From: an uncultured Clostridia bacterium
GTDB taxonomy: Bacteria > Bacillota > Clostridia > Christensenellales > Borkfalkiaceae
Assembly: GCA_947625555.1 (NCBI GenBank)
Contig: CANQOT010000005.1
Coordinates: 34,511 to 98,510 of the forward strand
Reading direction: 5' to 3'
DNA length: 64,000 nt
Positions 4,693 to 63,860 of this stretch are shown piece after piece. The position numbers were made by a program, and so were the translations under genes. Each line of letters opens with the position of its first letter. Within the stretch, counting starts at the first letter, position 1. Below the pieces are notes generated by a model. That model was given only the letters and a program-made list of their open reading frames with translations. It was not told where the DNA came from and did no database searches.

Positions 4693-7338
4693 TTATCTGC
4701 TTTCCTTCTTATCCGACCTCTTTTTCGCACCTTTGAGCGAGGCGAGGTCAACTTCTTTGAGGTTCTTCTCGTTGGGCTTGATGACGAGGAGAAGGATGAT
4801 CGCGATGAGCAGGACGGCCGAGATCGCGAAGAGGATGATCGCCGTCGTGTTGTTCTTGATCCAGTTGGACGAACCGTAGAGGATATCCGATTCGTTCGTG
4901 ACCTCGATGACCTTGTAGGCATGGGCGGTGAGACCGGGATAGGTGCCGTCGATGACTTCGATCTCGACGACATAGAGGCCCGTCGCCTGCGGCGTGAAGC
5001 TCAACGAGGATTCGGGATCCCATTCGTAGGCGTTATCGGTATCGTCCCACTTGGCATCCTTTTCCTTGACGCTCGGGTCGTAGACCCTGATCTCTTCCAT
5101 GCGGCTCGTGAGGTCGCTGAACTTCACTTCGCCGACGGTATTATCCTTGTTAGCCTCGTCGAAGAGGTCGTTGCCGTCCTTCTTCGCGGTGAGCTCGTCG
5201 AAGAGGTCGACGAGTTCCTCGACGCCGTACTCCTTCTGCTCGGCCTCCGCGGGGGCGAAGGAATAGAGCTTGTATTCCGCATCGTAGCCCTCGAGGGCGA
5301 TGATGTCGAAGCTCGAAATGGAATAGTTCTGCTTGTTGTAAGCCGTGGTCTGGCTGCCGGGTTCCTTGATCTCGGGGCCCGTATAGCCGATATCGAAGGT
5401 AAATTCGGGAATGCCGCCGATCTCGAAGATGTTGGAAGCCGTCACGGTGACGAGTTCCCCGTCCTCATTGTAGTACTTCATCGCATTGCCTGCGGCATCC
5501 TGCGCGATCACGCGGAAGGTATAGGGGCCAACTTGGTCCACTTCGAAGCGGAGATTGTTGTAGCGCAGCGAGGTCGCCGACGAAGGCGTGGAGCCCGCCG
5601 CAGCGCGCGGTTTGAGGTAGTAGATGTTGAAGCGAAGGTTGCGGTAGTCGGCATAGTCGCTTTCGATGAGCGTGCGGAGGGAGGGAAGGTAGAAATACGA
5701 CCCGTCGCCCGCGCTCACGTTCTCGGCGGCCTCGGCTACGCGATCCTGATAGACGTCGAGAGCGTCGAGGTCCTGATCGTTTTTCGTGCCCGACCAATCG
5801 GAGGTGTTCGTCTTGCTTGAATCGTCGGGAGTAAGTCCGACAAAGTGCGGTCCCTTGACTTCGCGGTCGACCACGATGTAATCGAAGTAGTTCCCCTCTT
5901 CCACGGCGGTATATTCGGAGACCTTCTTGGTGCACGCTTCCCTCTTTTCGGTGCCGTCCTCGTTCTCGGTGGTGACGGTGCCCGTGCACGTCGCATCCTG
6001 CGAGAGCTTTTCGTAATCGGCTACGGTGTAGTAAGCGCCGTCCTCTTTATAGTGGCTGCAATTGGGATCGGAACAGTTGTACCCTACGACCTGCTGGTGC
6101 GCGGTACCGTCCGCTTCCTTGTCGCCCTTGACCTCGACGACATCTTCCTGCGCGGCATACCATGTGAGGTAGACGAAGGTATCGTTATCGTCGGTGCCGT
6201 CGTCGAGCTTGAAGCGGATGGAGACGTAGGCCTTCTCCCCCTCTTCGGCGCCGCCTTCGACGTTATCTTCCGTCGGCATAAAGAAGGTGGAACTTGCGCT
6301 CAAAGTGGAATATTCGGAATCCGTCGGTTTGAGATAGTACTGCGTTGCGGCCTCGTCGCCTTCGGCAGGCTTCTCGCGCTTCAACATGTAGTATTGACGG
6401 GTGACGGAGACCGATCTATCGCAGACGTCGATCGCCTCGTAGGTAAGGCTGAACCGCTGGCCGAGACGGAAGGAATAGATCTTCTCGTTGATGACGAGCA
6501 CGGCGGGCGCATTGTCCTCGACGGTACCGTCGGCGTTGACTTTGAAGGTCTGCCCGTTGAGCTCCTTCATGAGTAACGTCTGCGCGGCGTCCTCTTCGGC
6601 CGTCTCGGGAAGCGTCGCCTCGAACAGCATGGGAAGCTGGGGAGAGCTCGCGGCCGTAGAACGGTATTCGAGGTAGTAGCCGCCGATGTTGGTGAAGGCG
6701 CCGATCTTCTCTTCGTTGAGCAAAACGTCGAAGTTGCCGGGGACTTCGGGATCTTCGACGAACTCGAAAGCGAGGTCGTCGGCCGCGTTCGCAATGGTAT
6801 GGATGGCCTCGGGGGCATCCTCGTCGTCCTCTTCAAATTCGGCGTCGCGCACGGCAACGGTGAGCTTGTCCTGCTCGCTGTCGTAGGCGAAGTGCAAAGC
6901 GTTGGTCGTCTGACCGTCCTTGGTGACGTTCTCTTCGTCGCTCTGGAAGGTGATATCGAAACTCTCGAATGCGACCGTGCCGAAGGCAAAGGTCATCGTG
7001 AAGTGGCGGGCTACGCCGGGATCGACGAGCCCCGACTCGACGACGCCCGTCTGAACGTTCTCTTTGTCCTCGACAAACCATTTGAGGGCGAGGTCGCGGC
7101 GGTATTCGACGCTGCTCCCCTTCGCGAGCGTGAACTGCACATAGGAGGTCTCCTCCTCGCCCACCTCCGCCGCCTCCACCTTGGCGCCGTTGAGCGGCTC
7201 GAAGATCTGGGACGGCGTATAGGTCGCCGCATAGGCTGCGTGCCCGCGGGGAAGGAAGGAGAGCGCAAGACCGAGCGTAAAGACACACAGCACGGCGAGC
7301 GCAAAGATTGTAAACAACCGAAGTTTTGCCTTACTCAT
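4693..7338 (-). CDS. Large secreted/membrane-anchored surface protein of unknown function
   Basis: 881 aa; N-terminal signal peptide (MSKAKLRLFTIFALAVLCVFTLGLALSFLPRGHAAYA), acidic extracellular region, C-terminal TM (TTAIILFAISAVLLIAIILLLVIK) with short basic tail. Confidence 0.75.
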   Translation of the reverse strand: MSKAKLRLFTIFALAVLCVFTLGLALSFLPRGHAAYAATYTPSQIFEPLNGAKVEAAEVGEEETSYVQFTLAKGSSVEYRRDLALKWFVEDKENVQTGVVESGLVDPGVARHFTMTFAFGTVAFESFDITFQSDEENVTKDGQTTNALHFAYDSEQDKLTVAVRDAEFEEDDEDAPEAIHTIANAADDLAFEFVEDPEVPGNFDVLLNEEKIGAFTNIGGYYLEYRSTAASSPQLPMLFEATLPETAEEDAAQTLLMKELNGQTFKVNADGTVEDNAPAVLVINEKIYSFRLGQRFSLTYEAIDVCDRSVSVTRQYYMLKREKPAEGDEAATQYYLKPTDSEYSTLSASSTFFMPTEDNVEGGAEEGEKAYVSIRFKLDDGTDDNDTFVYLTWYAAQEDVVEVKGDKEADGTAHQQVVGYNCSDPNCSHYKEDGAYYTVADYEKLSQDATCTGTVTTENEDGTEKREACTKKVSEYTAVEEGNYFDYIVVDREVKGPHFVGLTPDDSSKTNTSDWSGTKNDQDLDALDVYQDRVAEAAENVSAGDGSYFYLPSLRTLIESDYADYRNLRFNIYYLKPRAAAGSTPSSATSLRYNNLRFEVDQVGPYTFRVIAQDAAGNAMKYYNEDGELVTVTASNIFEIGGIPEFTFDIGYTGPEIKEPGSQTTAYNKQNYSISSFDIIALEGYDAEYKLYSFAPAEAEQKEYGVEELVDLFDELTAKKDGNDLFDEANKDNTVGEVKFSDLTSRMEEIRVYDPSVKEKDAKWDDTDNAYEWDPESSLSFTPQATGLYVVEIEVIDGTYPGLTAHAYKVIEVTNESDILYGSSNWIKNNTTAIILFAISAVLLIAIILLLVIKPNEKNLKEVDLASLKGAKKRSDKKESR

Positions 7339-53622: not shown

Positions 53623-54930
53623 ATGAAGATCGACGTGTTTATCAGCTATGAACACAAATCAAAATCCATTGCCGACTCCATCGTCTCCTCTTTCGAACAG
53701 GATAAGATCAGATGCTGGTATGCCCCGCGGGACGTGATCGGGGACTATGCCACGAGCATCGTGGAGGCGATTGAAAATGCTTCCGTCTTTATCCTCATTT
53801 TGAGCGGCGAATCCTCCAACTCCCCGCATGTGCTCAACGAAGTCGAGATGGCTTACAAGAAGAATATCGAACAATCCCAGACGATCACCATCGTTCCCTT
53901 CAAGGTGTCCAACGATGAACTTTCGCGCGCGATGGAGTACTACATCAAGCGTATCCATTGGATCGACGCAACGACCAGCGGCATGGAGGCGGCGATCACC
54001 GACTTGAAGAAAAAAGTTAAGCGTCTGCTCGGGATCCGCGAAGAGCCCGATGGGAGCGACGGACACGAGAGAACGCGGAATACTTACTTTACTTCCGAAG
54101 ATTCCAAAGAGATCCGCAGGCTGCGTATCCAGGATCGGACCGTGCTCTCGTTCGACGGAACGATCTATTCGGACGGCGCGAAGAATTTCTCCAAGGTGAC
54201 CGCCCTCGACCTCGGAAGCAACCGCGGGGATAATTTCTTCAACCGCTTTTCTCCCCTGCCGAATCTGGAAAAGGCGATCGGGATCGAATATGACAAGGGC
54301 GCCGTGGAATACGCCAATAAAAAATTCGGGGCGGATAAATTCTGTTTTTATTGCTACGACGTGGAAGCGGACGATCTCGCGGAGCGTTTGGAACAGATCT
54401 GCGATGAACAGGGCATCGAGAAATTTAATATGGTGAATATTTCCATGCTCCTGCTCCACCTCAAAAAGCCCTTCGCCCTGTTGAAAACCATACGGCGTTT
54501 CATGGAGCCCGACGGTCTCCTCATCATTCGAGATATCGACGACGGCTTCAATGTGGCCTTCCCCGATAAGGAAAAGCTCTTCGAACAGACCATCCGTTAC
54601 TGCGCGGAGAGCGAATTTTCGGGTTATCGCACCAGCGGGCGAGAGATCTATACGATGCTCAAAGATACGGGCTTTAAGGATATCAAGCTCGAAAACCTCG
54701 GGCTTTCCACCGTGGGCATGGACTACGACGAGCGGGAGGCGCTCTTCGATACCTATTTCAGTTTTATTGCGGGCGACCTGCAATCGATGGCGCAAAAGTA
54801 TCCCGATTCGGAACACTACAAGACCGCCCATAAATGGATACAGGACCACTACGACCGTCTGGAAAGCGAATTTATGCGCGACGACTTCTTCTTTGTGCTC
54901 GGCTTCATGCTGTTCAGCGCGAGAAAATAA
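53623..54930 (+). CDS. TIR domain - SAM-dependent methyltransferase fusion protein (copy 1)
   Basis: N-term IDVFISYEHKSKSIADSIVSSFEQDKIRCWYAPRDVIGDYATSIVEAIENASVFILILSGESSNSPHVLNEVEMA (TIR); C-term VTALDLGSNRGDNFF...AIGIEYDKGAVEYANKKF...FYCYDVEADD...NMVNISMLLLHLKKP (class I MTase). Confidence 0.82.
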   Translation: MKIDVFISYEHKSKSIADSIVSSFEQDKIRCWYAPRDVIGDYATSIVEAIENASVFILILSGESSNSPHVLNEVEMAYKKNIEQSQTITIVPFKVSNDELSRAMEYYIKRIHWIDATTSGMEAAITDLKKKVKRLLGIREEPDGSDGHERTRNTYFTSEDSKEIRRLRIQDRTVLSFDGTIYSDGAKNFSKVTALDLGSNRGDNFFNRFSPLPNLEKAIGIEYDKGAVEYANKKFGADKFCFYCYDVEADDLAERLEQICDEQGIEKFNMVNISMLLLHLKKPFALLKTIRRFMEPDGLLIIRDIDDGFNVAFPDKEKLFEQTIRYCAESEFSGYRTSGREIYTMLKDTGFKDIKLENLGLSTVGMDYDEREALFDTYFSFIAGDLQSMAQKYPDSEHYKTAHKWIQDHYDRLESEFMRDDFFFVLGFMLFSARK

Positions 54931-55442: not shown

Positions 55443-56939
55443 TTACGAGACCCTCTTTAATTCCTCGTACACCTTCACCATAGCATAGGTATCGAGTTCG
55501 CAGTATTTGAGCAAATTCCGCTCCGCCTCGGCGCGCTCGCCTTCGGGCATCTCTTTGAGGCGCGGGAAGAGCTCCATCGCCTCGCTCCCGTTGTGCACCC
55601 CTTCCAGGTTGTGATAGTTGAGGGCGGGGTCGTCGGGATAGATCGCGGGGAGGACGCTCTTGATGGAAAACGAGCCACCCATGTCGCGATTGTAGTAGTA
55701 TCCGCGCTGGAACGGATCGAGGAGATCCTTGATGTTTTCCTTGATTTTGAGGAGGTGCGCTTGAAGGTCGGGGAAGGCCGCGGCAAGTTCCTTGATGCGC
55801 GTGCATTCGAACGTCTTATTGTAGGCGAGCACGCAGACGTCTTGGGGGATATCCGCGACGAGCCTTTCGGCAAGCGCCCTTCTCGGGTCCTCTTCCGGCC
55901 GCCCCAAAAACTCGCGGTGTTCGAGCTCACCGCCCGGTTCCTTCAAGATATGCAAAGAATACTGCACGGGGATCTGCTGATAGGGCCGCGTGCTGATGTA
56001 GCGCGGAATGGCGGGCTGGACCGTCTCGAAATCCAAAAAGTAGAGCGGGAAGGTGAGCGTCTGCAAAAAGCCGTCGATCCCCTCTCTGTCGATGTGCGTC
56101 CCCCTGTCCTCGAGGGCAAACTCCACCTGCCGGCGGCGCATCTCGTTGAGGGGGCCGCCGCTCTCTAATACATCCTTATAGCTGCGGATCCCCTCGCGGT
56201 AGAGCGCGAGCTTCTTCTCGTAGGCGAGACGGTACAGGCAGAACACGGAGGGCGAGGGCAAATTCCGCGTGCAATAGCCGAAGAAGGCACAGGGATAGGG
56301 ATCGTTGCACGATGCCGAAAGATCGATGGCAGGCTCTTCCTTGGAGGACATGACCTTTTCGGCCTCTTGCAGGCTCTCCTCCACCGTGCCGAGCTCCTCG
56401 TCCACGAGGGCGGTGATCTCCGTGATCTTGAAGAGCCTATGAAGGTCGAGAACGCCGTTAAAGACGTAGAGTGGGTCGAGTGTGACGACAAACACGCGGT
56501 TCACCTTCACCCCGCACTTTTGAAGGACGTATTTTTGATAGGACGTATCCACGATATAGACGTGGTGTTCGGGCGAAGTGCTGCTCTTGACTTCATAAAT
56601 ATCGTACCCCTGTTGCGTTTTTCGCAAGATATCCACGGCGCAATAGAGCCCCTGATAGTCGAAGGCGGCCTCGCAGATATTCTCCCTTCCCTCGGCGAGA
56701 TACATGCGCGTGAGCGCCTTCATCTTTTTGAGATCGAGAGTGCCGTCCGCCCGATACGAGGTGACCTCGACGAAGTCGCCGAAGAGCCCCATCGCAAGGT
56801 CGCCCACCTCGTTGCCCGCCGTATAGCGCGCCTGCGTCTCGGCATCGACGAGATATTCCTCGGGCTTGTATTTTTTGAGCCACGCGATCTTGGGACATTG
56901 CTTGAAATCACAGTACTTCGACTTGCTGAAATAAAACAT
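55443..56939 (-). CDS. DUF2779-type nuclease: Cas4/RecB-like PD-(D/E)XK + DEDD exonuclease-like domain
   Basis: N-term SKYCDFKQCPKIAWLKKY, AVDILRKTQQGYDIYEVKSST, CNDPYPCAFFGYC (Cas4-like Cys set); C-term PLYFLDFETVQPAIP, VLAYNKTFECTRIKELA, LLKYCELDTYAMVKVYEEL (DEDD motifs). Confidence 0.78.
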   Translation of the reverse strand: MFYFSKSKYCDFKQCPKIAWLKKYKPEEYLVDAETQARYTAGNEVGDLAMGLFGDFVEVTSYRADGTLDLKKMKALTRMYLAEGRENICEAAFDYQGLYCAVDILRKTQQGYDIYEVKSSTSPEHHVYIVDTSYQKYVLQKCGVKVNRVFVVTLDPLYVFNGVLDLHRLFKITEITALVDEELGTVEESLQEAEKVMSSKEEPAIDLSASCNDPYPCAFFGYCTRNLPSPSVFCLYRLAYEKKLALYREGIRSYKDVLESGGPLNEMRRRQVEFALEDRGTHIDREGIDGFLQTLTFPLYFLDFETVQPAIPRYISTRPYQQIPVQYSLHILKEPGGELEHREFLGRPEEDPRRALAERLVADIPQDVCVLAYNKTFECTRIKELAAAFPDLQAHLLKIKENIKDLLDPFQRGYYYNRDMGGSFSIKSVLPAIYPDDPALNYHNLEGVHNGSEAMELFPRLKEMPEGERAEAERNLLKYCELDTYAMVKVYEELKRVS

Positions 56940-56969: not shown

Positions 56970-58247
56970 TCAGTTCTTTGTGGCGGTGAGGAAAAACATA
57001 CCCAACATGATGAAATATTTGCCTTCCATATAGTCGGCTTTCATCTGTTCGTGCCGTTCTTTCACTTTGGGAAGAAGATTGAACGCCTCGAAGTTATCAA
57101 AGTAGGAGGCGCTGTCTGCAGACCAAAGATCGGGATTAAAGTAGAGGTCCCAGAGCTCTTCGCGGTATTTCCCCCCAAAGTCCACGGAGGTGATCGCCGA
57201 GGAAAGCACGTCGATCTTACTAAATCCCGCATCCCGCAGCATCGCAGGAAGTTTGCGTGCCGTGCTTCTGTCTCCCGATTCCTTAGAATGCTCCCAGATG
57301 TAGAAACAGTCTTCAAAGAACTGCGAATGCGGATAGACAATGTTTGCGCCGTCGTCCTCATCCTGAATAAAGAGAGTGCCGTCGGGACTGAGCAACATAT
57401 AGAGATTTTTAAGAAGTCCTTCTGCATTACCAAGGTGTAACAGCACGGCAGAGATATGGATGATGTCGAATCCGAGAATGTTGTGCCGCTGCATACGCGA
57501 AAAGATCTGGCGGAAAAAGCCATCGGAAGTGACGTCGCAGCAGAAAAATTCGGTGTTCTCCGCAGCATTAGCTTTGGCGATTTCGATGGCTTCCGCATTG
57601 CTGTCCACGCCGATGAGAAAGCGGAAGTTGCTCTTTTCAAAGCGCACGAGAATGTTCTCCCCCGTATCGCAACCGATATCGAGGACTGCGGGAGAAGAAT
57701 ACTTCGGGAAGATATGCTCAAGATGCCGGATGGCATACTCGTTGAGATACCTGTTCTGCTCTTTGAGACGGATCTTCTCGACTTCTTTTTCAGTCGAATA
57801 AGTGCTTTGCAGATGTTCATCCGTCTTGAACGTGATGCCCGCCTGTTCGAAAATGGCAAGCACGAGGCTTTCGGTATCCTGATATTTTTCGGCGTAAAGC
57901 CAATTCAAACTACCCAAAAAGAGATTGATGATTTCTTGGTTTTCCTCTGTCAACGGTTCGAGTACGACGGGGACAATGTCGTAGGAAGGATTCTTCTTCT
58001 GCTGAAAGATCGCGCGGGCGATTTCGTTGCGCACCATGAGAGAAGAGACGCTCTCATTGGATAAAAAGACCACGAAATCGTTGGAATTATTGATAGCCTG
58101 GTTGATCTCTTCGATAAAATGCTGCTTACTGTCACGGAGCTGAAACCAACAGGATATACCGTAAAACTTGATCGTGTTGACGATCTTCTCCATTTTATCC
58201 CTGTTGGCATTGGAATAGGAAATAAAGATATCGAACTTTTCCGCCAT
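56970..58247 (-). CDS. TIR domain - SAM-dependent methyltransferase fusion protein (copy 2)
   Basis: N-term FDIFISYSNANRDKMEKIVNTIKFYGISCWFQLRDSKQHFIEEINQAINNSNDFVVFLSNESVSSLMVRNEIARAI (TIR); C-term AVLDIGCDTGENILVRFE...LIGVDSNAEAIEIAKANA...FFCCDVTSD...IIHISAVLLHLGNAEGLLKNLYMLLSPDGTLFIQDEDD (class I MTase). Confidence 0.83.
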   Translation of the reverse strand: MAEKFDIFISYSNANRDKMEKIVNTIKFYGISCWFQLRDSKQHFIEEINQAINNSNDFVVFLSNESVSSLMVRNEIARAIFQQKKNPSYDIVPVVLEPLTEENQEIINLFLGSLNWLYAEKYQDTESLVLAIFEQAGITFKTDEHLQSTYSTEKEVEKIRLKEQNRYLNEYAIRHLEHIFPKYSSPAVLDIGCDTGENILVRFEKSNFRFLIGVDSNAEAIEIAKANAAENTEFFCCDVTSDGFFRQIFSRMQRHNILGFDIIHISAVLLHLGNAEGLLKNLYMLLSPDGTLFIQDEDDGANIVYPHSQFFEDCFYIWEHSKESGDRSTARKLPAMLRDAGFSKIDVLSSAITSVDFGGKYREELWDLYFNPDLWSADSASYFDNFEAFNLLPKVKERHEQMKADYMEGKYFIMLGMFFLTATKN

Positions 58248-58349: not shown

Positions 58350-59615
58350 TTATTCTTGATCGGAGGCATTTGCATTGCCATACTTTTCTTGATATTTTTC
58401 CGCAAATTTCTCCATGAGCCGATAAGCGGGGAAATTTTTGTCTTCGGGGCGGCTCCATCTCCCCGTCGTGCGGCAGGCAATCTCGATTTGATCAGTGGTT
58501 GTAAGAAACCAATATCGCACCCAGACTTTTTTTCCGTTTACCATTTGGCGAAGTACGAGAGTTTCGAGTTCATCCGAGGCAACGCCGTTCACGCTCTTCA
58601 CATGGGTAATTTCGTAACCTATAGCCTCGTTATACTCCTTGCTCTTAACGATGTTGCGCTCTATCCCTTTCAATAATGCTATGCAGGCCTCCTCGCGGCT
58701 CTCTTTCGGTTCCTCGTAAGTATCGGCGGCTAAAATTGCCTCGAAGTCGGGTTTTTCGATGCCTTCATAGAAATAATTCTGAAGCAGGGCGCGCAAGATC
58801 TTGCCGAAGAGAACATACTTCCGATAGTCGTTGGCAAGACGGTTTGCGGGGTGGGGCAAAAGATACAGCGATATATTTTCACCGTCTAATTCCTTTGCCA
58901 ACCGATAATATGTCCGCTCGCCGAAGGCAAAGACGATGACCTTTTCGTCTCTCTTCCCTTCGCGCAGAAGGTTGAGTTCTCTCTTCAAGAAGTTTTCTAT
59001 ACAATCCTTTGCAATGTAATCATTTCCGTTGCCATCGTTGGGATATTCGTCCGTTGTCAGATAATTTTTCTGATCGTTCTTCATGCCGCATTTGACCATG
59101 TTCGTCACATAGGCGTTCGCCATATGGAAGGTGCGGATAGCGGAATAAATCATCCAGCCGTATTCCTTTTGGACGAAATATTGCGGATAGAAAAATTTCT
59201 CGTTCGGCTCTCCGCACTGCCCCATGACCCAATACCAACTCTTGCTGATGTATTTTCCCTTATAAAGCGGTAAATCACCGCCGTCGACCGCGCCCGGGTT
59301 TTCCATGACGAAGAGGACTGGCTTTTGCGACCAAGCCGCAACCGTATCATGATCGACCCCGTGTGCATCCAAAAAGTCGAGGGTATGTGTGCCGTGCGTA
59401 ATGCGCGTGAATACGCATTTGGTGCCATCCTCTTGAACGAGTTCGCAGCCGTCGCATTTCCGGCAGACAGTGATTTTCTTATTGTCGTGTGTTCCCTTTT
59501 CCTCTTCGATGAAATGCTTGAAATTATAATCCTTTTCATCGGGTGCAAATTCAATCAGTCCGTCTTTCCCGAAATTCAGACTATGAAGGTTTTTGACGAT
59601 GGCTTCCAAATCCAT
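58350..59615 (-). CDS. UDG-superfamily-like protein of unknown function
   Basis: CRKCDGCELVQEDGTKC, KPVLFVMENPGAVDGG, AYVTNMVKCGMKND, DCIENFLKRELNLLREGKRDEKVIVFAFGERTYYRL, LYLLPHPANRLANDY: same order as family 4/5 UDG motifs. Confidence 0.5.
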   Translation of the reverse strand: MDLEAIVKNLHSLNFGKDGLIEFAPDEKDYNFKHFIEEEKGTHDNKKITVCRKCDGCELVQEDGTKCVFTRITHGTHTLDFLDAHGVDHDTVAAWSQKPVLFVMENPGAVDGGDLPLYKGKYISKSWYWVMGQCGEPNEKFFYPQYFVQKEYGWMIYSAIRTFHMANAYVTNMVKCGMKNDQKNYLTTDEYPNDGNGNDYIAKDCIENFLKRELNLLREGKRDEKVIVFAFGERTYYRLAKELDGENISLYLLPHPANRLANDYRKYVLFGKILRALLQNYFYEGIEKPDFEAILAADTYEEPKESREEACIALLKGIERNIVKSKEYNEAIGYEITHVKSVNGVASDELETLVLRQMVNGKKVWVRYWFLTTTDQIEIACRTTGRWSRPEDKNFPAYRLMEKFAEKYQEKYGNANASDQE

Positions 59616-59683: not shown

Positions 59684-61486
59684 TTATGGCTTTCTTTTGC
59701 AACAGCCGATGACGGCGTCGAAAATATTTGATTCAACCGCGCCGATGAGCGCCGTTTTTCCGTCGGTTTTGATATTCCGAATCGTCTCTTCAAACGCATA
59801 TTTTGGAATGCGGAGCAGGATCACGAAGGCGTCGTATGGCTCGGCGGCAATTTCGCCGATTTTTGACGTAAGTTCCGCCTCTTCCCCCGCGCGGACGATC
59901 TTCATTTCGCAGACCGAATACGTATCCCGAAAGTACTTGACGTCCGTCTTGCAGAGCGCGACAAGGGCATTTTCACGCTGCGCCCCGTCGATCAGGGCGT
60001 CGAAGAAGCGCGGCGAAAGGGGCTTTTTCTCCCTTTCGCCGATCTCGAGATCGTACTTTTTCAAGAATTTTCGTACGAACGGCGCGCAGTCGGCATAAAA
60101 AGGAAGGTCGCCGCGGAACGCTTCGAGCTTTTCCATAACGGTATCGAGGTCGGGCGCCCTTGCGAGCATTTCATTCCGAATGCCCGTGAGTTCCGCGATC
60201 TCGGGCGGAAGGCTTCCCTCAAAGGCGACAAGGGAGAAAAAGCGCTCCGTCAGCTTCCCGTCTGTGATTTTGTCTGCCGAAACGGAGATCACGCGGTCAT
60301 GCTCTTCGTTTAAGCCGCTCGTCTCGACATCCAAGAGAACATATTTCTCACATGGGAAATTCTTTCCGCCGAAGATCTCCATGCCGTAATTTCCCCTATC
60401 GTCGAAGAGCTGAACGACCTGCACATGCCTTCCCGCAAGCTGCTTGGAATTGCGCCATGCGGAGAAGGGTTTTTCAAAGTGGGCGGGAATAAGGATGCTG
60501 ACGTCCATACGCGCCGCAAGCTCTTTAAGCCTCAACGTCTCCGAAAGACGGCGGTAGCGAGCATGGCTTTCCCCTTCCGAAAACAGTTTGAGATCGAGCA
60601 CGATCAGTCCGCAATTATCAATATGGGGGGCGATTTTTTCGGCAGCAGCGAGTGAAAGCCGCTCATCCGTGCACACTCTGCCGTCCAAAGATTTCGTCTC
60701 ATACTTCTCGGTGAGGCAAATTTTTTCGGTGGGAAATGCCGAATAAACGCTATCCTCTTTGTCGGTAAAGACCTTCACGCCGTCCCACGGCGGCTCGTGT
60801 GCAAGGCGGCAAAATTCGAGCACAAGTTCGTCCTCCCGCTCGGTTTCGAGCCCTTCGAGGAAGGTGACGCCGTACTCCGAGAAGAGGACGTTGTAGAGGT
60901 CCTCAATTTCGCCCTCCTCCTCGTCCATGAGGGCGAGCGCGAGGCGTGCATAAGCAAGCGTCCATGTGAGAAGGTCATCTCTCGTGTTCATCATGATGTC
61001 CTTGTCGAGGAGGAAAATCTCATATTCCGAGAATATCTCCGTCGTGGGCGTCCCGTCCTTAAATTCCCTTCGGATGGGAAACGTTTTCCCGAACTGCCGC
61101 ACGGGATGGACAAAAGAAAGTCCGCACTTTTTTGCGTGCTCGGCGAAGATACCTGCCGTATCGAAAAAGTTCGGAATCACAACGGGGACGCCCCCCTCTG
61201 CAAACGCACACACCCGTTTTGCGACATCTTCAAACGAGAGCGCGCCGATGAGGTGATCCTCCTGAACGCCGTAAGCCTCGGGGTTGCACGGGTCAAATTC
61301 GATGTCGTGCGCGTCGTAGCCGTCGATTGCAATAAACGAGGAGAAGTGGGAGACGATCTTCCTCTTCTCGATTTTAACCGCTGCAACTTCAACAAGATAG
61401 GGTTTTTCGGGTTTCTCTTTCAGCCCGCGGATATCGTCCGCGCAGGCAAATCCGAGGATGACATAGCTTTCGTTTCTGTCGATCAT
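59684..61486 (-). CDS. Multi-domain protein: two DnaQ-like exonuclease-fold regions flanking a DnaB-helicase-like segment
   Basis: C-term KYVLLDVETSGLNEEHDRVISVSADKITDGKLTERFFSLVAFEG (DnaQ-like); N-term YLVEVAAVKIEKRKIVSHFSSFIAIDG (DnaQ-like, lacking DxE); middle DNCGLIVLDLKLFSEGESHARYRRLSETLRLKELAARMDVSILIPAHFEKP resembles the DnaB Walker B/H3 region. Confidence 0.5.
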   Translation of the reverse strand: MIDRNESYVILGFACADDIRGLKEKPEKPYLVEVAAVKIEKRKIVSHFSSFIAIDGYDAHDIEFDPCNPEAYGVQEDHLIGALSFEDVAKRVCAFAEGGVPVVIPNFFDTAGIFAEHAKKCGLSFVHPVRQFGKTFPIRREFKDGTPTTEIFSEYEIFLLDKDIMMNTRDDLLTWTLAYARLALALMDEEEGEIEDLYNVLFSEYGVTFLEGLETEREDELVLEFCRLAHEPPWDGVKVFTDKEDSVYSAFPTEKICLTEKYETKSLDGRVCTDERLSLAAAEKIAPHIDNCGLIVLDLKLFSEGESHARYRRLSETLRLKELAARMDVSILIPAHFEKPFSAWRNSKQLAGRHVQVVQLFDDRGNYGMEIFGGKNFPCEKYVLLDVETSGLNEEHDRVISVSADKITDGKLTERFFSLVAFEGSLPPEIAELTGIRNEMLARAPDLDTVMEKLEAFRGDLPFYADCAPFVRKFLKKYDLEIGEREKKPLSPRFFDALIDGAQRENALVALCKTDVKYFRDTYSVCEMKIVRAGEEAELTSKIGEIAAEPYDAFVILLRIPKYAFEETIRNIKTDGKTALIGAVESNIFDAVIGCCKRKP

Positions 61487-61501: not shown

Positions 61502-62500
61502 TTATTCTTCGTAATTTTTTTGCATCTCGACGATGTCCGAGCATACCATGTCCGCAAGTGACTGTGGCGAAAGAACTTTCACATATCTCCCGAAGCTCAG
61601 GATCCAGAAGCGCATAGCGCGGGGAGAAGCGGTGACGCTCACACGGTATTCCCCCGAAGGGAGGAGCTCGATGTCCGCCTCTCGCCCGAAGGTGTCAAAC
61701 ACATAGTCGGGAATGTTTTGGGGGCTGTTGCGCGTCTCAAAGACGATCTTCTGCGGCTCATCGTAGTAGAGATTGGGGAGGCGGCTTTGCAGTTTCCCCA
61801 AATTTAACCCGTTCTCGCAGCCCTTGATAGAGGTGACGGGACGGGCACGTTCTTCCAAGGCGGAAACCTCCGTCATGCGGTCAACGCGCACGAACGCCAA
61901 GTCGTCGTGCCCCGCGAAGGCACAGGCGAGGTAGTACCCGCCGTTCTTCAAAAAGAGCTGAAAGGGGCTCGCTGTGTACGGCGTTTCCCGCCGCGGATGA
62001 AGTTTTTTGTCGGCGCCGTAGTCCTGATAGATGAATTTTACCTGCCGTTTTGCGGCGATCGCCTCGGTGAGAAGTTCGACGGAGAGGAAGAACTCCTGCC
62101 CGTCCGACTTGATATAATCGTCGAGGTTGACGACGTGGCGGGCATAATTTTTGAAATACTTCCCGCCCTCCTTTACGAGTTTTTCAATGAGCTGTTTGGT
62201 GTGCGCCTTGCAGATATTGCGGCTTGCAAGCACGGAATCGACGAGAAGGCGCAACTCCCCCACTTCGAACTTTTTCTCGGCGAGATATACGCCCGATTTA
62301 TCGGAGAGAATTTCATAGCCCGCGTCCTGCAAATATTCGATATTCCGCGCGACCGCCTTCCTCTCGCACTCGATGCCGTAAACGACTTTGAGCAGGCTTA
62401 TGATATCGCCCTGATGAAGTTTATGCTCGGCGTCCGAATATTCCGTCAGAATTTCGAGAATGCGCAGAATGAGCAGTTTTTTGGGTTCATAACTTTCCAT
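61502..62500 (-). CDS. WYL-domain transcriptional regulator
   Basis: N-term HTH (ISLLKVVYGIECERKAVARNIEYLQDAGYEILSDKSGVYL), central WYL-like VKFIYQDYGADKKLHPRRETPYTASPFQLFLKNGGYYLACAFAGHDDLAFVRVDRM. Confidence 0.85.
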   Translation of the reverse strand: MESYEPKKLLILRILEILTEYSDAEHKLHQGDIISLLKVVYGIECERKAVARNIEYLQDAGYEILSDKSGVYLAEKKFEVGELRLLVDSVLASRNICKAHTKQLIEKLVKEGGKYFKNYARHVVNLDDYIKSDGQEFFLSVELLTEAIAAKRQVKFIYQDYGADKKLHPRRETPYTASPFQLFLKNGGYYLACAFAGHDDLAFVRVDRMTEVSALEERARPVTSIKGCENGLNLGKLQSRLPNLYYDEPQKIVFETRNSPQNIPDYVFDTFGREADIELLPSGEYRVSVTASPRAMRFWILSFGRYVKVLSPQSLADMVCSDIVEMQKNYEE

Positions 62501-62591
62501 TTCGTTCTCCTTTTGCTCTATGATAGCAAAAGCCTTGTACCGAAAACGGGACAAGGACAGTATAACATAGATCAAATGACATTGCAAGGGG

Positions 62592-62903
62592 TCAATTGTT
62601 TGCAAGTTCCGCTTCCAATTCGTCGAATGCGTCCCGCATCGCCTCTTCCTTTGTCGCGTACTGATAGCGGGAAAAGTGCTTGTCGAAGGCATACTTCCAC
62701 CCGTATTTCGTTCCATCCTCGCGGGAAAGCTCGAAGAGGACGATCGTGTGCCCCTTGATGCGCAGATAGCTGTTCCCGTTGCGGGAGGTCTGCCACTGCC
62801 GCGTTACAAACGACCGCTCGCGCGACTGCCTCGATTTGAACGCCTGCTCCCGTTTCTTTGCCCCTTCGATATCGCCCTGCATCTTTCCCGCGCAGACGCA
62901 CAT
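62592..62903 (-). CDS. Small hypothetical protein
   Basis: Open frame in the same-strand run; basic N-terminus then GNSYLRIKGHTIVLFELSREDGTKYGWKYAFDKHFSRYQYATKEEAMRDAFDELEAEL. Confidence 0.5.
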   Translation of the reverse strand: MCVCAGKMQGDIEGAKKREQAFKSRQSRERSFVTRQWQTSRNGNSYLRIKGHTIVLFELSREDGTKYGWKYAFDKHFSRYQYATKEEAMRDAFDELEAELANN

Positions 62904-62906
62904 TCA

Positions 62907-63665
62907 TTACAACGCCTTGAAAAAAAGAATTACATCGTCCCCTTTCTGATTTTTGTATATATAATTATCCGTTTCAAACCCAACTTTATGATGAAGTTTT
63001 ATGCTTGCGATATTGTCAGCGCGTACCTGTTGATAGACAATTTTATAGCACTTTTCTCTACAAATTTCAAGCGCCCTATTCATGGCGATCGTACCGTACC
63101 CTTTTCTGCAACAGCCCAAAAACAACTCTATACCGATGGAAACTACGCTCTTTGAATGTTCATACAACGAAAGCGTACCGACCACTTTTTTACCCTGAAC
63201 GATTGCAAACATTTCAAAGTACTTTCCGTGATAGTCGAGAGAGTTCCAATCGCCTATCATTTTATCAATTGCTCGTATGGACATATTCGGACAATAGAAT
63301 TTTTGTAATGTTCCAATGTCCTCTGAATTGGGAATGAAGTTTCGCAGTACACATTTTTCCATATATTCGCTTACCAGTAACCCTTCGGCTCCCTTATTTT
63401 TTTCACCAACGACTATGAGATTTTGCTCTGCCTTTTGATAATATCGTGTTTCATCGAGTCTCTCCCCGGATAACAGCTCATTTACGCTGATACCGAGCAG
63501 ATTACAAAGCGGCATCATCAAACCGACTTCGGGCAATCCGCTACCCGTCTCCCACTTTGAAACTGTCTTTTCGGAGATCCCCAAACTTTCCGCAACCCGC
63601 CGTTGTGTGAACTTTTTCTCTATTCGGATAGCTTTCAAAAATTGTCCGATTTTGATTTGTTCCAT
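62907..63665 (-). CDS. XRE-family HTH - GNAT acetyltransferase fusion
   Basis: N-term IGQFLKAIRIEKKFTQRRVAESLGISEKTVSKWETGSGLPEVGLMMPLCNLLGISVNELLSGE; C-term GTLSLYEHSKSVVSIGIELFLGCCRKGYGTIAMNRALEICREKCYKIVYQQVRADNIASIKLHHKVGFE. Confidence 0.88.
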   Translation of the reverse strand: MEQIKIGQFLKAIRIEKKFTQRRVAESLGISEKTVSKWETGSGLPEVGLMMPLCNLLGISVNELLSGERLDETRYYQKAEQNLIVVGEKNKGAEGLLVSEYMEKCVLRNFIPNSEDIGTLQKFYCPNMSIRAIDKMIGDWNSLDYHGKYFEMFAIVQGKKVVGTLSLYEHSKSVVSIGIELFLGCCRKGYGTIAMNRALEICREKCYKIVYQQVRADNIASIKLHHKVGFETDNYIYKNQKGDDVILFFKAL

Positions 63666-63860
63666 AAAGCAATGCTCCTTATGCTTCCATAGTAGCACAT
63701 TGGTTTTTCTAAAACAACCCACGCTCCGTAGAGTTGGAAAAAACATTCAAATCTGCAAAAATAATCATATCATACGCAAAAAACAAAATCAAGTCAGAAC
63801 AGGGCGAATAAACCAATGGCACTTGGGCGAATGCCTGACTAAAGCGAGCACCCAAAAAGT

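Follow-up and report, generated by a model that had tools for sequence, protein, structure and literature searches.

A 600-residue protein encoded in the 64,000-nucleotide stretch of bacterial DNA analysed here (the window) combines two DnaQ/epsilon-like domains with a middle part that is possibly DnaB-derived. Its exonuclease motifs are broken in ways that recur in its homologues, and its gene is under purifying selection. We put the chance at about even that this is a conserved, catalytically dead replisome-type composite belonging to a WYL- and operator-linked set of genes, whose products act as decoys or dominant-negative blockers. An earlier note, made from the letters alone, had called the protein a decoy or replisome-interacting pseudoenzyme; the reading frame, strand and length it gave agree with our open-frame check, and the pseudoenzyme claim is borne out by the catalytic losses common to homologues together with the selection on the gene. 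The gene and its parts are as follows.

59684–61486, minus strand: composite pseudoenzyme, whole coding sequence, 600 aa; open frame, called by codon usage
60902–61486, minus strand: N domain, residues 1–195, degenerate DnaQ/DEDDh fold with motif I lost (hhalign; AF2 and Foldseek)
60353–60901, minus strand: M domain, residues 196–378, possibly DnaB-derived, no Walker A (hhalign E 0.024)
59852–60361, minus strand: B domain, residues 376–545, DnaQ/DEDDh fold with motif I kept and motifs II and III lost (Pfam RNase_T E 7e-13; alignment; Foldseek)
59687–59851, minus strand: C-terminal tail, residues 546–600, predicted β-α-β-β (alignment; dN/dS 0.065)

Domain structure and loss of active sites

The anatomy first proposed was largely right, in that each outer part has a DnaQ/DEDDh fold whose active site is degenerate. 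An intact D-E-D-D-H set is absent from the protein, B being without the motif II Asp and the motif III His and Asp, and N without motif I. Pfam identifies a single domain in the whole protein, RNase_T at residues 383–495 (E 7e-13), and DnaQ and PolC exonuclease domains match the same part in a PDB sequence search. When B is aligned with the intact DnaQ-type exonucleases of relatives (14 sequences), D386 and E388, within the LLDVETSG already recognised, fall at a retained motif I, and ADCAPFV (residues 465–471) stands in place of xxHNxxFD, with loss of the motif II Asp, as the earlier note had described. Motif III (HxxxxD) is also lost, with VRAGEE (residues 531–536) at its alignment position, a loss beyond what had been mentioned. 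In all B-bearing homologues, including L032, L033, L080, L081, L082, L008 and L010, the motif II Asp is replaced by V, I or A, so the degeneration of B is conserved and not private to the window copy; motif III is likewise lost in those B homologues that extend so far. Intact motifs were found only in a separate DEDDh gene beside an N-type protein (L073), the homologues of the module itself being degenerate.

The N-terminal domain has no match in Pfam, and its assignment comes from profile and structure comparison. A profile of four N sequences matches the intact DnaQ-type exonucleases of the genus with 97.7% probability (hhalign, E 2e-12), and the AF2 model of residues 1–378, which is confident over most of residues 1–135 (pLDDT about 70–94), gives Foldseek matches for N to DnaQ, PolC-exo, 3'hExo and other DEDDh enzymes. 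Both results uphold the description of this region as DnaQ-like without the DxE: FACADDI stands at motif I, and the window copy and a close orthologue of it retain a partial NFFD. Because mixed full-length alignments put relatives of N onto B, two separate AF2 models were used. Standalone N-domain proteins of about 225–245 aa are present in other genera of the order. At the end of N and the start of M, residues 149–183 and 199–229 (window positions 60938–61042 and 60800–60892) form, by eye, an imperfect repeat, FSEYxIFLL...RDDLLTWTLAYARLA and FSEYGVTFLEG...REDELVLEFCRLA.

Modelling by domain gave DEDDh/DnaQ folds for N and B but did not resolve M, which is mostly at pLDDT 25–60. The central likeness to DnaB around Walker B, without a Walker A, stands in part. 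The resembling segment is real, and residues 196–378 contain no GKT/S motif (Walker A P-loop), but the match is weak: aligned from Walker B onward, M meets DnaB at hhalign E 0.024, with one of 100 and one of 60 column shuffles equally good, and neither Pfam nor PDB sequence searches with M return a DnaB match. M, which is found in 4 of 103 genomes of the genus, is thus possibly derived from DnaB. A template of DnaB with Walker B deleted fits worse than the native one (13 of 100 shuffles as good), and this deletion model was dropped. Comparison of M with the UDG-like, exonuclease, WYL, N, UvrD, AAA and VWA proteins of the loci gave nothing convincing, most being at chance and the nearest being WYL (9 of 60 shuffles as good) and N (7 of 60). 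A standalone P-loop gene in L086 (9461–9913), at first sight DnaB-like, is a generic P-loop protein by Pfam.

The 55-residue tail is common to the module variants that extend to the C terminus. No family match was found for it, and its derivation from a β-clamp (DnaN) fragment is unsupported (E 0.085, 26 of 200 shuffles as good).

Between the window gene and an orthologue of 89% identity, dN/dS is 0.17 over the 600 codons; by part it is 0.12 for N, 0.18 for M, 0.20 for B and 0.065 for the tail. The loosest stretch is the region of the lost motif III (0.42). The gene is under purifying selection, which argues against a decaying open reading frame.

Gene neighbourhood and candidate operator

The 600-aa gene lies on the minus strand, 15 nt behind a WYL regulator gene, and is followed by a gene of the UDG superfamily. 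The features around it are:

61502–62500, minus strand: HTH-WYL-WCX transcription regulator, 332 aa (Pfam WYL E 1e-9, WCX E 3e-7)
58350–59615, minus strand: UDG-superfamily protein, 421 aa, downstream gene (Pfam UDG 24.7 bits, cut-off 24.3)
62534–62555, minus strand: candidate operator, the inverted repeat CTTGTCCCGTTTTCGGTACAAG, 34 nt ahead of the WYL start; conserved, unique in its own genome
62559–62587, minus strand: promoter TTGCAA-17-TATACT in front of the operator, from a consensus scan in which chance matches also occur; conserved in WYL loci
62592–62903, minus strand: UvrD-like helicase remnant, about 100 C-terminal residues (92% identity to residues 831–930 of the 932-aa UvrD of L081)

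Close orthologues of the WYL regulator are found in nine genomes of the genus, and in eight of them a variant of the dead DnaQ module lies next to it or one gene further downstream; the ninth contig stops at the WYL gene. The chance probability of this co-occurrence is 2e-8, calculated for events that, in a linked locus, are not independent. The variants behind WYL are NMBC, BC, B or C only, and the gene after them encodes either a UDG-like protein, from one of several clades, or an Mrr nuclease. Elsewhere in the order, two genomes have a PDDEXK_4 nuclease behind the N protein, directly or with a Sel1-repeat gene in between, and in L073 (G106) the intact DEDDh gene, a WYL gene, a dead N protein and a UDG-like gene are grouped together. 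PADLOC assigns the PDDEXK_4 proteins to defence candidate PDC-S26 and Mrr to PDC-S02; no complete defence system of a known type was recognised at the locus. The Pfam UDG model is matched marginally, by the window protein at the score given above and by L082 at 26.5 bits, with L070 below the cut-off and L080 not listed, and the downstream gene is thus marginally placed in the UDG superfamily as a putative glycosylase.

The window is bacterial, its closest named relatives being uncultured Clostridia and Christensenellaceae MAGs. There is no support for a phage setting, as the searches yielded neither viral nor phage nor plasmid relatives of N or M. An origin of the gene in a phage or plasmid was likewise rejected, N and M being without relatives in viral contigs or plasmids and phage matches being confined to the generic DnaQ part.

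Several further observations concern the surroundings. The UvrD-like gene, whole in L081 and L174, is reduced to a remnant in G007 and the window, where the breakpoint adjoins an HTH-GNAT gene (62907–63746). Genes combining TIR and methyltransferase domains (53623–54930, plus strand, and 56970–58247, minus strand; Pfam TIR_2 and Methyltransf_23), an unusual pairing near the locus, lie on both sides of a gene for a DUF2779 protein with a Cas4-like N-terminal part (55443–56939, minus strand; Pfam). Relatives of the latter, at about 48–62% identity, recur by WYL genes in L077, L085, L093, L094 and L097. More distant WYL regulators (about 35–40% identity) are longer than usual in L075, L076, L094, L096 and L097, and by eye their extra part resembles leucine-rich repeats. 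Beside another WYL gene, L087 encodes a Pol III alpha NTPase-like protein (4874–5737, minus strand; Pfam E 1e-7) and a protein (5734–6636, minus strand) which by eye looks like the beginning of RecF with its P-loop broken and has no Pfam match.

Directly behind the promoter, the window repeat reads CTTGTCCCG-TTTT-CGGTACAAG, and its conserved form is CTTGTCCCG-TTTT-CGGgACAAG. Allowing up to three mismatches, we found 12 matches in 8 of the 103 genomes searched, all upstream of genes of these loci: WYL (seven genomes), the C-only module (G095), UvrD (intact in G056, a remnant in G007) and a 245-aa gene (G056 and G015). A related repeat precedes both the WYL gene and the intact DEDDh gene of L073. 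Going by position only, we infer that the WYL protein binds the repeat, and the separate transcription units that carry it would then be regulated jointly by this protein. The WYL leader (62501–62562, minus strand) can also fold into two adjacent RNA hairpins (z −3.3), and the conserved repeat could act at the RNA level as a hairpin in the leader. An HTH-WYL-WCX regulator (by Pfam) and a conserved inverted repeat are both present, as in WYL-regulated defence loci; such regulators, and their sensing of ssDNA, are established elsewhere (PMC9122601, PMC10693628, PMC11804915).

Dead Pol III alpha and DnaB proteins in relatives

The 245-aa gene found behind the repeat matches two curated Pfam models, DNA_pol3_finger (E 4e-11) and DNA_pol3_alpha (E 2e-7). 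Compared with DnaE of the genus, its product keeps the pre-catalytic segment and the finger, and the PDFDVDF segment is deleted; on this alignment it is a catalytically dead mini-Pol III alpha. Almost all short alpha-like ORFs of the genus lie on contigs with such a WYL gene, operator or module, apart from one small contig (G049:C101) that does not allow a judgement. In four genomes a protein of 121–125 aa is encoded directly downstream of the dead alpha, four of four being neighbours of it. From its match to DnaB (hhalign 98%, E 1.4e-13; blastp E 2e-15 to DnaB of the genus), with Walker A absent and Walker B lost, this protein is unmistakably a dead mini-DnaB. Values of dN/dS are 0.17–0.37 for the dead alpha and 0.18–0.46 for the dead DnaB.

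Outside their own families, the best matches of the dead parts are the replication proteins of the genus and not those of phages. The mini-DnaB is most similar to the genus' own DnaB; in a tree the mini-DnaB proteins form one clade with long branches outside the true DnaBs, which does not place their origin firmly. The dead DnaB has no phage match, and the dead alpha has no match in viral contigs, the best of the phage matches listed for it including ordinary alpha subunits. The families of M, dead alpha and dead DnaB were seen in few genomes, all of this genus and family. The window genome lacks both dead alpha and dead DnaB, the full set being present in relatives only, as in G056, where dead alpha, dead DnaB, UvrD, WYL, dead DnaQ and a UDG-like gene are laid out together. 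Mutual exclusion of M and the separate dead alpha across genomes was considered and set aside, being suggestive but only at P 0.085.

Possible function

The dead sites, their conservation, the purifying selection, the operon layout and the repeat in front of separate transcription units are all readable in the sequences. The most likely reading is an inducible module for defence or DNA damage whose dead parts act as replisome decoys or in a dominant-negative way. The hypothesis of a decoy or replisome-interacting protein is strengthened because operator-marked loci of sister genomes encode a Pol III alpha and a DnaB that are both dead; a single operator-marked set thus combines UDG-like or nuclease genes with dead mimics of alpha, epsilon and DnaB. 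In such a system the WYL protein would sense infection or DNA damage, as ssDNA or a nucleotide, and release the operator. The dead parts, which resemble replisome proteins of the host lineage, would interact with replisome components or primer ends but catalyse nothing, serving either as decoys for replisome-hijacking phage proteins or as dominant-negative blockers, and the UDG-like or nuclease partner would meanwhile attack DNA. Hijacking or shutdown of the host replisome is common among phages. The most specific form of the proposal, an inducible shadow-replisome in which host-derived dead alpha, epsilon and DnaB under WYL control block or decoy replication during phage attack, together with a glycosylase-like or nuclease effector, is one that we advance tentatively.

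Its main rival is a DNA-damage complex with inactive subunits. In it the dead alpha, epsilon and DnaB-like proteins would serve, without catalysis, as the scaffold of a repair or translesion assembly that damage induces. A WYL damage sensor would control this assembly, UvrD and a base-excising glycosylase would be its partners, and the dead proteins would be comparable in principle to ImuB. Precedents are at hand in the WYL regulators PafBC, SiwR and DriD, which respond to DNA damage (PMC11804915, PMC10693628, PMC12340889), and in ImuB, an inactive polymerase of the mutasome (PMC12926913), and enzymes such as UvrD and the UDG-type proteins are of the repair type. The loci showed no error-prone polymerase, however, and their patchy, variable content, with Mrr, PDDEXK_4 and LlaJI-like nucleases and nearby TIR genes, looks more like defence; we consider a repair complex possible, if rather doubtful. 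A narrower role as partner or antitoxin, in which dead DnaQ only binds and restrains the UDG-like or nuclease protein or aims it at DNA 3' ends, its replisome likeness being historical, would agree with the position of the module just upstream of such a gene in most loci while all else varies. It is nonetheless unlikely, as it leaves the same operator before dead alpha and dead DnaB unexplained and the partner families are many and different. That the loci are functionless replication-gene fragments piling up in an unstable genomic island seems very unlikely: broken copies do occur, with a frameshift and fusion in one relative (G030; L033/L071) and a frame break in G011, as do the UvrD remnants of G007 and the window, but the low dN/dS of the 600-aa gene, above all of its tail, and of dead alpha and dead DnaB, the frames that stay open across divergent relatives and the conserved operator all argue against decay.

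Returning to decoys and dominant-negative parts, we know of no other integrated strategy of this kind in bacteria that uses inactive copies of three replisome parts, and a light check of the literature on related terms, partial in coverage, found no similar system. What is new is that dead alpha, epsilon and DnaB occur together in one operator-marked set, a claim that rests on none such being known. Should the function be ordinary repair scaffolding, novelty would be weaker and the system a variant of a known theme; even a role in DNA-damage tolerance would nevertheless put dead alpha, epsilon and DnaB to a use not recognised before. The system is open to direct testing because its parts are small and share the operator sequence as a mark.

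Comparison with known systems

With the DnaQ-type DEDDh 3'-5' exonucleases (Pol III epsilon, PolC exo and DinG exo), N and B share fold and sequence, and B also motif I. B differs from these enzymes in lacking motifs II and III and N in lacking motif I, and here the two are fused to each other and to M with no tie to a polymerase or helicase. The likeness to DnaB helicase is confined to a short stretch in M and to the relatives' separate 121–125-aa protein, which is clearly DnaB; Walker A is missing here, the mini-DnaB is also without Walker B, and the match of M is weak. As in WYL defence loci of the BrxR and CapW type, an HTH-WYL-WCX regulator heads variable DNA-acting genes, with an inverted repeat before its own gene, but the cargo includes dead replisome parts and is neither BREX nor CBASS, and the defence role is putative. 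Brig1 is an antiphage glycosylase of the UDG superfamily, and defence by such an enzyme is on record (PMC11078745). The UDG-superfamily protein described here also has defence-type genes nearby, but it is of another clade and is always with WYL and/or dead-DnaQ genes. ImuB, the inactive PolY homologue of the ImuA-ImuB-DnaE2 mutasome, offers the parallel of a dead polymerase relative under selection in a possible DNA-damage context. The dead parts of the present loci are instead a C-family alpha, DnaQ and DnaB, and no live error-prone polymerase was seen among their genes.
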